From positions 1 through 26,456 of the IMG/VR virus record IMGVR_UViG_3300047481_000351: a DNA stretch of 26,456 nucleotides. One strand, 5' to 3'. Under the pieces are notes generated by a model. It was not told the origin of the DNA and searched no databases. It saw only the letters and a program-made list of their open reading frames with translations. A program made the position numbers and the translations under genes. Position 1 is the stretch's first letter; every line of letters starts with the position of its first letter. This DNA comes from a virus. Shown here one piece after another: positions 576 to 23,827 of this stretch.

Positions 576-1161
576 ATGATATATTTCACATCTGATACTC
601 ACTTTGGTTAGCCTTCGGGCTAACTAAGGTCACAATAATATAATAAAGTATTGCAATCGCCCGTTTGATAATGTTCACATAATGGATCAGGTTATATTCG
701 ACAGAATCAACGAGACTGTTGGGGTTGATGATACTCTGTACATACTGGGTGATTTTTGTTTTAGGGGTAAAAAGCCTATAGACTATAGAGTGCGTATAGC
801 CTGTAGAGATGTTCATATCATATTCGGCAACCATGACAAGAGGACTGACTATTATCCCGATGATCTTGTTACAGACATGAATGGTTTTAGCAGCATACAA
901 GAAGTTAAAGAAATAATATATTGTAATCAACGAATATATCTCAGTCATTACCCTCATCGCTCATGGCCTGCAAGTCATAAGGGTAGTTGGATGCTGTTTG
1001 GTCACGTTCACTCTAAACTAGACAGTGAAGATAAAAATTCTTCCAGAAAAACACTAGATGTTGGTGTGGATAATTGCGTTAATTATGATAAGCCTTTTGG
1101 ACAACCTTTTAGTTTTAAAGAAATCCAACACATTATGAATCATCACAGACAAGGAAGGTAA
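576..1161 (+). CDS. Metallophosphoesterase interrupted by a 22-nt hairpin insert (candidate translational bypass)
   Basis: A calcineurin-like metallophosphoesterase is encoded in two frames. ATG 576 begins MIYFTSDTHFG (11 codons) and then hits TAG at 609. The rest of the family consensus (HNNIIKYCNRPFDNV...) starts at CAC 631, 22 bases after the last Gly codon and in a different frame, and stays open to 1161. Joining the parts gives 187 residues with every metal-site motif in order: DTHFGH (7-12), GDF (51-53), GNHD (77-80), SHYP (116-119) and GHVH (135-138). An internal ATG at 682 would give 159 residues without DTHFGH, probably inactive. Since 22 is not a multiple of 3, stop readthrough cannot join the halves. 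Ribosome bypass from GGT 606 to GGT 628, RNA removal or a dead gene are the options. The substrate is unknown. The family call is firm; the expression route is inference. Confidence 0.8.
606..630 (+). other. Bypass-like element: matched GGT codons around a stop-containing TTCG hairpin
   Basis: Seen directly: GGT (606-608), TAG (609-611), then a perfect hairpin whose 5' arm (606-613) includes the GGT and the stop, a TTCG loop (614-617) and a 3' arm (618-625) with one G-T pair at the base, then AA and a second GGT (628-630). The reading frame continues correctly after the second GGT. In phage T4 gene 60 the ribosome takes off from a GGA codon followed by UAG, within a stem-loop, and lands on a matching GGA 50 nt further on. 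Here the skip would be 22 nt. I found no second copy of the hairpin in the window. It may instead be a small insertion flanked by a GGT duplication. Confidence 0.6.
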
Positions 1162-5517: not shown

Positions 5518-6123
5518 ATGGACACTAAACAATCTTTTGTCATTAAAGTTGTAAGAGAATTACTCTCACACAACTTCTCAGTTTTGCTACACAATAAAAC
5601 ACATATTGATGGATATGGAGGATGGTTTGGCAATGATGAGGGAGAAGAAGAATTTGTGGTGGCAATGAAACATCCTATGAGTTTTGAAATTTTTATCCAT
5701 GAGTATTGTCATTTTTTGCAGTGGAAAACTGATAGAAATTTTTGGGAAAGCTCAACAGAATATTATGACATACTCTTTAACTGGATAAAAAATCCTGAAT
5801 TAATAATATCTATAGATGATCTTACTAAAAGCTTAAATACAATACTGTCTTTAGAGCATGACTGCGAAAAGAGAGTTTTAAAATTAGTACAAAATAATCC
5901 TATTGAAAATTTTGATACTGATAAATATAAAAGAGCAGTTAATGCTTATCTGTGGAGTTATCATCTAAATTTAGAATTAAGGAAAAGGCCAGTTAATCCT
6001 ATTTACTCTGACAGGGTATTGCCTTATATGTCTAATGTGTTTGTTAATGATCTCAGTTATTATCTTGACAAAAATAATCTATCGAATGACGCTCGTAATG
6101 CTTTGCTGGCTGAGTACGAATAA
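5518..6123 (+). CDS. HExxH metallopeptidase-like phage protein
   Basis: Residues around 61-70 read IFIHEYCHFLQW, a zinc-binding HExxH site followed by Gln, and SLEHDCEKR further on supplies a Glu that could be a third ligand. This layout (HEYCHFLQW...ELDCEKR) is one I recall from uncharacterised phage proteins. No signal peptide is seen. With the HELNH protein at 1773 there are two such genes in 5 kb, but the sequences outside the motif are not obviously alike. A peptidase role is inferred. Confidence 0.6.
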   Translation: MDTKQSFVIKVVRELLSHNFSVLLHNKTHIDGYGGWFGNDEGEEEFVVAMKHPMSFEIFIHEYCHFLQWKTDRNFWESSTEYYDILFNWIKNPELIISIDDLTKSLNTILSLEHDCEKRVLKLVQNNPIENFDTDKYKRAVNAYLWSYHLNLELRKRPVNPIYSDRVLPYMSNVFVNDLSYYLDKNNLSNDARNALLAEYE

Positions 6124-6135
6124 TTAAAGAAGCAT

Positions 6136-6164
6136 TTGACAACTTGCCGATACTGTGGTATATT
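6136..6164 (+). promoter_or_regulatory. Sigma70-type promoter of the UV endonuclease gene
   Basis: TTGACA (6136-6141), a 17-base spacer and TATATT (6159-6164), with GCCGATA just behind the -35 and GTGG before the -10. It lies 13 bases after the upstream stop and about 20 before the uvdE start, in the only real gap of this region. Confidence 0.8.
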
Positions 6165-6184
6165 GGAACGGAATAGGAGATTTT

Positions 6185-7114
6185 ATGATTCGTCCCGGCC
6201 TCTGTTGCATTTCCCTGACACTTCAAGAACGTGATCCTCCAGTTAAATTTCAAACAATGACCTTTAAAAGATTTTCTAGTTTGCCTAGAAATGAAGCATT
6301 GAGTATTCTTGGTGACAGGATTCTGAACAACCTTGAAACAACTAACGAGACTATTAAATTCTGTGGTGAAAACAATTGGGTCTATCGTGTATCGTCCGAT
6401 ATTTTTCCACTCATTACTTATGATGAAGCTAACGTATCTCTAGAAGATTTGCCCAATCATGACCTTATCCAAGATGAGTTTGATAATATTGCACAAACTA
6501 TCTCCTCTACTAATGTTCGCGTATCCGCACATCCAAGCGAGTATAACTCTTTAGCTAGTTTGTCTGATAGAGTTGTTGAAAAAACAATTACAGAACTTAA
6601 TTTTTATAGTAGTTTTTTTGACCGAATCGGATTGCCAGCAAATACTAATGCTGCGATGAACCTACACGTTCACAACAATAACGGAACCAGAGAAGAAATT
6701 TCTCGCAGATTTTATGAAAACTTTAGAAAGCTTGACGAGAACTGTCAGGCTCGTCTTACGATAGAATGTGATGACAAACTTAATTGCTGGAGTGTAAAAG
6801 AACTCGTAGATATTTTTCATCCTATTACTCGTATTCCTATCTGTTTCGACTATTTGCATCACAAGTGTCATCCAAATAATTTGACAGAATGTGAAGCTAT
6901 TAATATGTGCTACGACACTTGGCAGACAACTCCGCTTTTTCATTACAGTGAATCAGCACCGGGAAATAATCCTCGCAAACATGCGGACTATGCTATTGAA
7001 CCGATTAATACATACGGTCTTGAATTCGACCTCGATTTTGAGATTAAACAAAAGTGTTTGGCTATTAAGAAGTATCAGGAACTTTACCCAGAATTTTCAC
7101 CAATAGGAGTTTAA
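6185..7114 (+). CDS. uvsE: UV damage endonuclease UvdE (UvsE)
   Basis: UvdE nicks DNA directly 5' of UV photoproducts and other lesions, starting a repair route that does not need the UvrABC system. Family stretches are all present in order: GLCCISLTL at the start, YRVSSDIFP, HPSEYNSL, MNLHVHN, LTIECDD, CFDYLHH, HYSES and HADYA, which carry the His, Glu and Asp metal ligands of its TIM barrel. ATG 6185 is chosen because AGGAG lies 6 bases upstream and because an earlier frame start falls inside the -10 box. The 309-residue length is usual. Phages that replicate in light would profit from it. Confidence 0.93.
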   Translation: MIRPGLCCISLTLQERDPPVKFQTMTFKRFSSLPRNEALSILGDRILNNLETTNETIKFCGENNWVYRVSSDIFPLITYDEANVSLEDLPNHDLIQDEFDNIAQTISSTNVRVSAHPSEYNSLASLSDRVVEKTITELNFYSSFFDRIGLPANTNAAMNLHVHNNNGTREEISRRFYENFRKLDENCQARLTIECDDKLNCWSVKELVDIFHPITRIPICFDYLHHKCHPNNLTECEAINMCYDTWQTTPLFHYSESAPGNNPRKHADYAIEPINTYGLEFDLDFEIKQKCLAIKKYQELYPEFSPIGV

Positions 7115-11595: not shown

Positions 11596-11797
11596 AATTC
11601 ATCCTATTGCATATATTATATTAGGATTTTTATGTTTATCTCTAGGATTCAATTTGCTGCAAAAATCAGAAAACCAAAGACTTCGCAAAATGCTAGATAA
11701 AAAATCTCAACCCATTATAATAGATCTTCCAGATCCATATCCATATCCACAAAATGAAAAAAATAGCGTAAGAAAAACCTTTAATCATACAACTTAG
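11579..11797 (+). CDS. Membrane-anchored protein, 72 aa
   Basis: ATG 11579 overlaps the coiled-coil gene by 17 bases. Residues 9-24 are hydrophobic (AYIILGFLCLSLGFNL), giving an N-terminal anchor, followed by a basic helix and a Pro-rich stretch (DLPDPYPYPQ). The layout resembles a phage spanin or signal-anchor protein but nothing proves this. The last base of the stop is the first base of the tmRNA. Confidence 0.55.
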   Translation: MKIITRIHPIAYIILGFLCLSLGFNLLQKSENQRLRKMLDKKSQPIIIDLPDPYPYPQNEKNSVRKTFNHTT

Positions 11798-12149
11798 GGG
11801 GCGAAATAGAATCGATTGGATATAGAAGATTATATTAGCAAGTAGTGGTTTATCGACAGGCCACTTTAAAAGTCGATAAAATGCTTTAACTGGCACAAAT
11901 CAGTTAGCCCTTGCTGCTTAATAAATAGTAGCAACAATCTTAGAAAGCGATGAAGGTAGCGTTCAAAAGATTGTCGTAAAATCCTTCGGCTGCTAGAATA
12001 GCCAACGGGTTCTAGCCTGAGATTAGTTGGTACGACAAGATAAATGTTGTTTGTTCTTTAATCTTGTTTAAAATTTATGAATAAAATAAACTTGTAGAAG
12101 ATATAATTAGACATATCGCAAGACGCGGGGGCAGATCCCGCCGCCTCCA
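11797..12149 (+). ncRNA. ssrA: Transfer-messenger RNA (tmRNA)
   Basis: tmRNA frees stalled ribosomes and adds a degradation tag. The acceptor stem pairs 11797-11803 (GGGGGCG) with 12142-12148 (CGCCTCC), discriminator A 12149, and includes the G3-U70 pair needed by alanyl-tRNA synthetase. A pseudoknot precedes the tag: AGTGG/CCACT interlocked with ATCGAC/GTCGAT (about 11845-11880). The tag frame runs from about 11883 or 11892 to 11918, ends in QLALAA and stops at TAATAA (11919-11924). The resume codon is GGC 11892 by analogy with TAACT-GCG in cyanobacteria (tag GTNQLALAA). Further pseudoknots follow. CCA is not encoded. The T-loop is odd (GGCAGAT instead of TTCRANN). Confidence 0.9.
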
Positions 12150-12155
12150 TTTAAT

Positions 12156-16145: not shown

Positions 16146-16244
16146 TCAGATAAAATCAATAAGATTCATCATCAATCATATTGGTCAAGGACACAACCTC
16201 CAAGTTTAAATCCTGTGAACTAATATGGTTGGTGGTGAACTTAT

Positions 16245-16530
16245 GGCCTCTTGGCGTAATAGGCAGCCGCAACGGACTTATACAATTTGAGTGCTTAGGA
16301 GGAAACCCCTAAAGTAGAATCGCTTAAATTCGGTGAAAGCTTAACTGCTAATACCGAGCCAAGTCTGAGTAATCAGAAAGGTGTAGAGACTAAACAGGCG
16401 ATACCTAAAACTAGAAGTAGTAATGGTAAAGATATAGTCCAGACCACAAACAGAAATGGCAACGAAAGTTGTAGTGGTAAGAAAATCCGTTGGGAGTAAT
16501 CCCGTGTGGGTTCAAGTCCCACAGAGGCCA
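16245..16530 (+). tRNA. tRNA-Leu(UAA) split by a group I intron
   Basis: The exons are 16245-16279 and 16482-16530. Acceptor stem GGCCTCT (16245-16251) pairs with AGAGGCC (16523-16529), discriminator A 16530. D-stem GCG/CGC; anticodon stem ACGGA (16272-16276) with TCCGT (16486-16490); loop CTT plus AAAA gives anticodon TAA. The long variable arm (GGGA-GTAA-TCCC) is typical of Leu. T-stem GTGGG/CCCAC with loop TTCAAGT. CCA is not encoded. Splicing must remove 202 bases. The extra tRNA probably helps read UUA codons, which are common in this AT-rich genome. Confidence 0.93.
16280..16481 (+). ncRNA. Group I intron (IC3-like) in tRNA-Leu
   Basis: The 202-base intron sits after U34, the position used in cyanobacterial and plastid tRNA-Leu(UAA). 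The 5' exon end ACTT pairs with GAGT in the intron (P1), with a U-G pair at the splice site, and the intron ends in G (16481). Core elements look like the cyanobacterial intron: ACCGAGCCAAG (P4/P5 side), AGAAAGGTGTAGAGACTAAAC and, near the end, ATATAGTCC (two arms of P7). No endonuclease gene is inside, so it relies on RNA self-splicing only. Confidence 0.88.
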
Positions 16531-16559
16531 CTCAATACTTAAAGAAAGAGTTTACTCTT

Positions 16560-23720: not shown

Positions 23721-23733
23721 GAACCCTTATCAA

Positions 23734-23804
23734 GCAAGTGTCGTATAATGGTATTACCTTAGATTTCCAATCTAATGACGAGGGTTCGATTCTCTCCACT
23801 TGCT
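23734..23804 (+). tRNA. tRNA-Gly(UCC)
   Basis: Acceptor GCAAGTG (23734-23740) pairs with CACTTGC (23797-23803), discriminator T 23804. D-arm TCGTATAATGGTATTACC resembles bacterial tRNA-Gly; anticodon stem TTAGA/TCTAA with loop TTTCCAA gives TCC. T-stem GAGGG/CTCTC, loop TTCGATT. CCA is not encoded. It reads GGA codons. It lies 13 bases after the primase stop. Confidence 0.93.
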
Positions 23805-23827
23805 TTTCAAACAAACGGAATACAATA

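Follow-up and report, generated by a model that had tools for sequence, protein, structure and literature searches.

A 22-nt insert in a phage phosphoesterase gene as a probable translational bypassing element of the gene 60 kind

The 26,456-nt stretch of viral DNA analysed here as a whole (the window) carries a calcineurin-like metallophosphoesterase gene interrupted by 22 nt, and sequence comparison together with predicted RNA folding makes it highly likely that this insert is a programmed translational bypassing element of the gene 60 kind. We favour this interpretation, which an earlier note on the same DNA had proposed, because the insert is conserved, the joined protein is under selection, the gene 60-like hairpin covaries through compensatory changes, a 5′ stem-loop accompanies it, and a second gene carries an element of this design. 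To our knowledge, T4 gene 60 is the one case in bacteria and phages where efficient bypassing is firmly proven; the present elements suggest that bypassing, known chiefly from T4 gene 60 and its relatives, may have a wider distribution and can operate over much shorter gaps. New relative to gene 60 are the other genes concerned, a gap less than half as long, and the lack of room for a nascent-peptide signal.

Results

One phosphoesterase in two coding parts

The upstream reading frame opens at ATG 576, encodes MIYFTSDTHFG (576–608), and ends with GGT (606–608) directly before TAG (609–611); the family sequence HNNIIKYCNRPFDNV resumes at CAC 631, immediately after a second GGT (628–630), and stays open until the stop at 1159–1161. 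The earlier note had placed the stop at codon 12, after the glycine of DTHFG, and the continuation 22 nt further on behind an identical GGT, and both placements proved exact. The features of the window are listed below.

547–574, + strand: leader, ATACGAAAGGAAAAATAATAAGTGATAT, with an AAAGGA Shine-Dalgarno-like site at 552–557
566–604, + strand: 5′ stem-loop, AAGUGAUAUC (566–575) with GAUACUCACUU (594–604), −9.6 kcal/mol
576–608, + strand: upstream coding part, MIYFTSDTHFG, containing the phosphoesterase DxH metal motif (D7, H9)
601–630, + strand: take-off hairpin, 13 bp (601–613 with 618–630), UUCG loop at 614–617
606–608, + strand: take-off codon GGT (Gly); GG(N) is invariant in eight phosphoesterase genes, in contigs L058 and L236, and in gene 60 relatives
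609–630, + strand: 22-nt gap proposed to be bypassed, TAGCCTTCGGGCTAACTAAGGT, with TAG at its start and the landing codon at its end
628–630, + strand: landing codon GGT, identical to the take-off codon (GGC in L058)
631–1161, + strand: downstream coding part, 176 codons plus stop, the rest of the calcineurin-like metallophosphoesterase

The metal motifs GDF, GNHD, SHY and GHVH are all present in the 631–1161 part, as the note had held, and DxH alone precedes the gap. The joined protein scored 27.6 bits against Metallophos_2 (Pfam cut-off 27), whereas the downstream part alone scored 22.7, below the cut-off; the nearest solved structure to the joined protein is Aquifex aq_1665 (1xm7). As in gene 60, a single conserved protein lies in two coding parts with a non-coding gap between them. 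An alternative start at GTG 568 was rejected, as it shares the ATG frame in the L008/L014 type only.

The insert is shared by related phages

Eight contigs, which come from several metagenomes, share both the 22-nt element and the codon at which it lies: the window, L008, L010, L014, L015, L021, L022 and L273. A protein search of viral contigs yielded L008, L010, L014 and L015, four relatives starting exactly at residue 11; L021 and L022 came from a pattern search and L273 from an alignment search. The GGT-TAG take-off and stop, as well as the matched GGT/GGT codons, occur in 8/8 bearing phosphoesterase genes. Other relatives (L002, L006, L007, L009, L011, L012, L013, L016 and others) are uninterrupted and in frame through GH. 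By this comparison the insert is not a private mutation of the window. The earlier note had named homologues in related phages as a check on the bypass: seven more contigs keep the insert with an intact, selected reading frame beside the uninterrupted relatives. In isolated phages, no insert-bearing phosphoesterase was found among the matches listed. The protein tree of the phosphoesterases forces at least two gains or losses of the element, and five of the bearing genes cluster in it (support 86/93).

These alignments also bear on stop readthrough or +1 frameshifting in place of bypassing, which we regard as extremely improbable. The insert shifts the frame by +1, so readthrough across the 22 nt fails; moreover, TAA 625–627 closes the downstream frame immediately 5′ of the landing GGT, and the two parts in the window are therefore not joinable by readthrough or a single +1 shift. 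One contig would permit frameshifting, since L273, with CAA for TAA, has no stop in the +1 frame of its insert, but in the other seven TAA shuts this frame right before GGT, and the in-frame gap of L058 (see below) contains both TAG and TAA.

A further phosphoesterase relative (L297:1105–2531) has IWLTSDTH in one frame within a perfect 13-bp hairpin and FGHSNIIKY in another, with TAA after GGT. Its interruption differs from the 22-nt element and may represent either decay or another recoding device; the endonuclease-like gene described below lies upstream here as well.

The downstream part is under selection

A frame-shifting insertion that brings in a stop is normally fatal, and a selfish or accidental hairpin insertion might simply have inactivated the phosphoesterase. 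We consider such a broken gene unlikely. None of the eight bearing contigs shows the further decay that the earlier note had named as evidence against a bypass, and the downstream parts of the bearing genes gave a dN/dS of 0.10–0.17 at dS from about 0.8 to saturation, a sign of strong purifying selection. Of the note's two alternatives for this part, still selected or hit very recently, these values agree with the first. In the cleanest pair, the sisters L010 and L021 (support 100/99), both genes bear the element and are equally diverged on either side of it, with 48 differences that are synonymous and 32 that are not (pN/pS 0.16; Fisher p 3e-19). The hairpin covariation described below likewise argues against a dead gene. 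In many pairs, identity was highest at the element and decayed both ways in a co-conversion-like manner, which is consistent with recent spread and means that selection may predate the insertion in some pairs. The element and downstream parts with a long history of selection may have been brought together by recombination or homing, and only some pairs look vertically inherited.

Selection at the protein level also extends to codons 12–28, the 17 codons that follow the landing site up to the first downstream ATG (682), with a pooled pN/pS of 0.19, and no Shine-Dalgarno sequence precedes that ATG. Both observations weigh against two readings, a dead gene and internal initiation. The latter would yield two polypeptides, with termination at TAG and reinitiation past the gap at ATG 682 or at a non-AUG codon such as AUA, using UAAGG at the landing site as a Shine-Dalgarno sequence. 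This UAAGG matches the anti-Shine-Dalgarno sequence well and lies about 10 nt 5′ of AUA codons, and ATG 682 is conserved; however, the product would be without the DxH metal motif, and the hairpin and L058 would be left unexplained. We therefore judge reinitiation to be very unlikely.

The take-off hairpin covaries

RNA folding predicted 13 continuous pairs between ACUUUGGUUAGCC and GGCUAACUAAGGU around a UUCG loop, so that the take-off codon, the stop, the gap and the landing codon all fall within the hairpin (601–630). The TTCG-capped hairpin over GGT, TAG and gap that the earlier note had described was recovered, although it is larger than stated there, having 13 bp and including the landing codon. 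It is the sole hairpin with 13 bp and a 4-nt loop in the 26-kb window (dinucleotide shuffles, 0.075 per window). Among the phosphoesterase elements, the loop varies between UUCG and UGCG and the foot between CUAAG, UUAAG and UCAAG, with all 13 pairs always kept. The nine different hairpins compared, from four gene sets, had standard pairs in 97% of pair cells, and both sides had changed in 7/13 pairs; 0/500 shuffles, and no slid register, approached the observed pairing.

A perfect hairpin could also serve as a processing site, and a group I intron is present elsewhere in this phage; the mRNA might lose the 22 nt by hairpin cleavage and religation or as a minimal intron. We assign this explanation next to no probability: 22 nt are too small for an intron core, there was no Rfam match at the insert, and the flanking matched Gly codons and the stop are kept though unnecessary for RNA removal.

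Searches of the window and of its relatives' complete contigs found the hairpin at the known sites and nowhere else. In degenerate hairpin scans of viral contigs, where the count of in-frame sites is to be read as "at least", the matches listed were mostly intergenic cyanophage-type hairpins or out of frame. In the control, the remaining matches to the pairing pattern were intergenic or out of frame, and the 21-nt pattern had 0 matches in GTDB contigs. L127, L178, L200 and L216 were rejected on inspection as further element sites. As a caveat, UUCG hairpins of the take-off sequence are also common between marine phage genes. One of them, ACTTTCTCAATTGGGTAGCCTTCGGGCTACCC, is highly repeated between genes in L030, L031, L074 and about 50 other marine-looking phage contigs; these hairpins, whose core is the same as that of the take-off hairpin, are probably terminators.

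A 5′ stem-loop adjoins the take-off codon

A 5′ stem-loop, recognised post hoc, was predicted beside the take-off codon in all element-bearing genes; in the window it stops 1 nt short of that codon. The folding energies in silico were −9.3 to −11.4 kcal/mol for the bearing genes and L058, and −10.8 for T4, whereas the uninterrupted relatives, which are without the 5′ arm, gave 0 to −8.0 kcal/mol and no such fold. L008 and L014 form 9 bp here without a mismatch; L058 has its 5′ arm within extra N-terminal codons absent from its relatives; and the leader of L273 is nearly the same as that of L022. All bearing genes have CAC as codon 9, whereas the close uninterrupted relatives have CAT; both stems need CAC. 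The Shine-Dalgarno interaction is likewise stronger in the bearing genes (−4.9 to −8.4) than in the uninterrupted ones (+3.0 to −4.5).

Elements in two other genes

A 14-kb contig (L058, a single case) carries a comparable arrangement in a gene for a family 9 glycosyltransferase (GT9), unrelated to the phosphoesterase: MDAQRILIFRSGAFG leads to GGT, followed by TAGCCTTCGGGCTAACTAGGC and then DNIILTPVIRFLK. The gap is 21 nt, the take-off codon GGT, the landing codon GGC, the hairpin 13 pairs, and 15 codons lie upstream; relatives with 58–68% identity are uninterrupted.

The second is a split topoisomerase gene on a 213-kb phage contig (L236:3693–7167), a gene 60-like candidate bypass with a covarying stem. 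TGA stands for TAG, the opposite stem strand is changed to TCA, the gap is 45 nt, and the landing codon is GGC. A reading frame between the topoisomerase parts (5531–6628) appeared endonuclease-like by eye; it had no Pfam match.

Comparison with gene 60 and proposed mechanism

Efficient bypassing in bacteria and phages is firmly established for T4 gene 60 only, and the existence of shorter-distance counterparts with matched codons has "long been presumed" (PMC5009743). The plan here is that of gene 60: a Gly take-off codon with a stop next to it, a matched landing codon and a stem-loop that includes the take-off codon, all of which the earlier note had recognised, and in addition a 5′ stem-loop. 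The tetraloop hairpin is near-identical to that of gene 60 and bears compensatory changes. The T4 sequence GAT GGA TAGCCTTCGGGCTATCTATAG corresponds to GGT TAGCCTTCGGGCTAACTAAGGT in the window; both hairpins have GGN-TAG-CC-UUCG-GG-CTA-N in common, and at the stem top they differ solely by a compensatory change from an A-U to a U-A pair.

The differences are equally clear. T4 gene 60 encodes a topoisomerase and has a 50-nt gap (48 nt in Salmonella phage S16 and 52 nt in Shewanella phage Thanatos-1, both read from the sequence with GGT take-off), whereas the gap here is 22 (or 21) nt in other genes. Unlike in gene 60, the landing codon lies within the hairpin foot, the separate gap segment is absent, and UAAGG overlaps the landing codon instead of forming a Shine-Dalgarno-like site 6 nt before it. 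The weak pairing predicted after landing may or may not correspond to the 3′ stem-loop with which ORF2 of gene 60 begins.

In gene 60, three things bring about take-off: the nascent peptide, the 5′ stem-loop and a small stem-loop located in the A site; EF-G powers sliding, and peptidyl-tRNA-Gly re-pairs with the landing codon (PMC11194080, PMC5009743). By analogy, ribosomes would read 11 codons, GGT being the last, and TAG would then stand in the A site, whereupon the downstream mRNA would fold into the UUCG hairpin, occupy the A site and exclude termination. Peptidyl-tRNA-Gly would release GGT and the ribosome would slide across 22 nt, aided by the 5′ stem-loop, which would close in its wake; re-pairing at the landing GGT would then let decoding restart at CAC, giving a single intact phosphoesterase. 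We infer each of these ribosomal steps from the sequence and its likeness to gene 60.

The main argument against bypassing is that gene 60 depends strongly on its KKYK nascent-peptide signal, which lies some 30 residues away from the P site (PMC5009743, PMC11194080). With 11 codons upstream (15 in L058) there is no room for such a peptide; 11 residues at take-off make the signal impossible in the window gene, and the doubt that the earlier note raised on this account stands. A nascent peptide may be unnecessary over so short a distance; alternatively, a low efficiency may be offset by the stronger initiation site.

Short non-coding gene inserts skipped by ribosomes, as proposed here, are represented by the byp elements of Magnusiomyces capitatus mitochondria, where mitochondrial ribosomes pass 81 sites at which the A-site codon is an unused one; their matched codons are sometimes dispensable, and they are apparently independent of mRNA context (PMC5009743). 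The reported 29-nt hop in the Prevotella loescheii adhesin gene and the likely terminase bypass of Streptomyces phage Hau3, likened to the present elements by description only as short-distance cases, were not followed up or are unproven (PMC5009743).

An endonuclease-like gene upstream and a possible homing origin

Directly upstream of the phosphoesterase in L022 and L273 lies a gene for a 283–284 aa protein (71% identical between the two) whose 3′ end forms the leader. The window leader (547–574) retains 28 nt identical to the 3′ end of the L022 gene (..YERKNNK, TGA), while the gene itself is absent, and is probably the scar of a lost endonuclease gene. The encoded protein, a putative homing endonuclease, gave weak HNH-family matches and no catalytic domain match (in L273, NUMOD3 at E 7.5e-4, just under the cut-off), and its AlphaFold model was too poor for use (pLDDT 47). 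We rejected a relationship to MobA, as there is no real similarity to MobA of HY03 or S16, and no relatives were found in GTDB contigs.

For T4, mobA-gene 60 has been proposed to be a homing cassette (PMC2988022, PMC5009743). The T4 endonuclease gene adjoins the bypass site, and S16 and HY03 have one at the corresponding place before gene 60; here a putative one is present in 2/8 bearing contigs. Interrupted and uninterrupted alleles coexist among the relatives, with identity peaking at the insert. The upstream gene, the leader scar and the patchy distribution thus fit a cassette of the mobA-gene 60 type, and the element probably came in as the resistant target site of such a cassette, in the way proposed for mobA and gene 60 in T4.

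On balance, we lean towards a small class of phage bypass elements, consisting of a 5′ stem-loop and a GGN-stop-UUCG hairpin, which unrelated homing endonucleases would have brought into topoisomerase, phosphoesterase and glycosyltransferase genes; the minimal 21–22-nt forms would act near the gene start without a nascent peptide and land in their own hairpin foot. The conserved family of candidate sites adds two new genes and the short-distance matched-codon kind, and its natural variants in loop, stem, stop codon and gap (21, 22, 45–52 nt) make the minimal requirements testable, chiefly the need for a nascent peptide. If the endonuclease link is true, mobA-gene 60 would exemplify a general route for homing elements into genes without breakage.

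Other RNA features of the window

The window also encodes a tmRNA (11797–12152; Rfam RF00023, 99 bits), present too in the relative L009, and a group I intron (16243–16531; RF00028 at 16270–16463) that seems to interrupt a tRNA-Leu-like gene at its anticodon loop. A phage tRNA-Gly with anticodon TCC lies at 23733–23805 and is relevant in that the proposed bypass uses glycyl-tRNA; GGU codons are normally decoded by the tRNA-Gly with a GCC anticodon.
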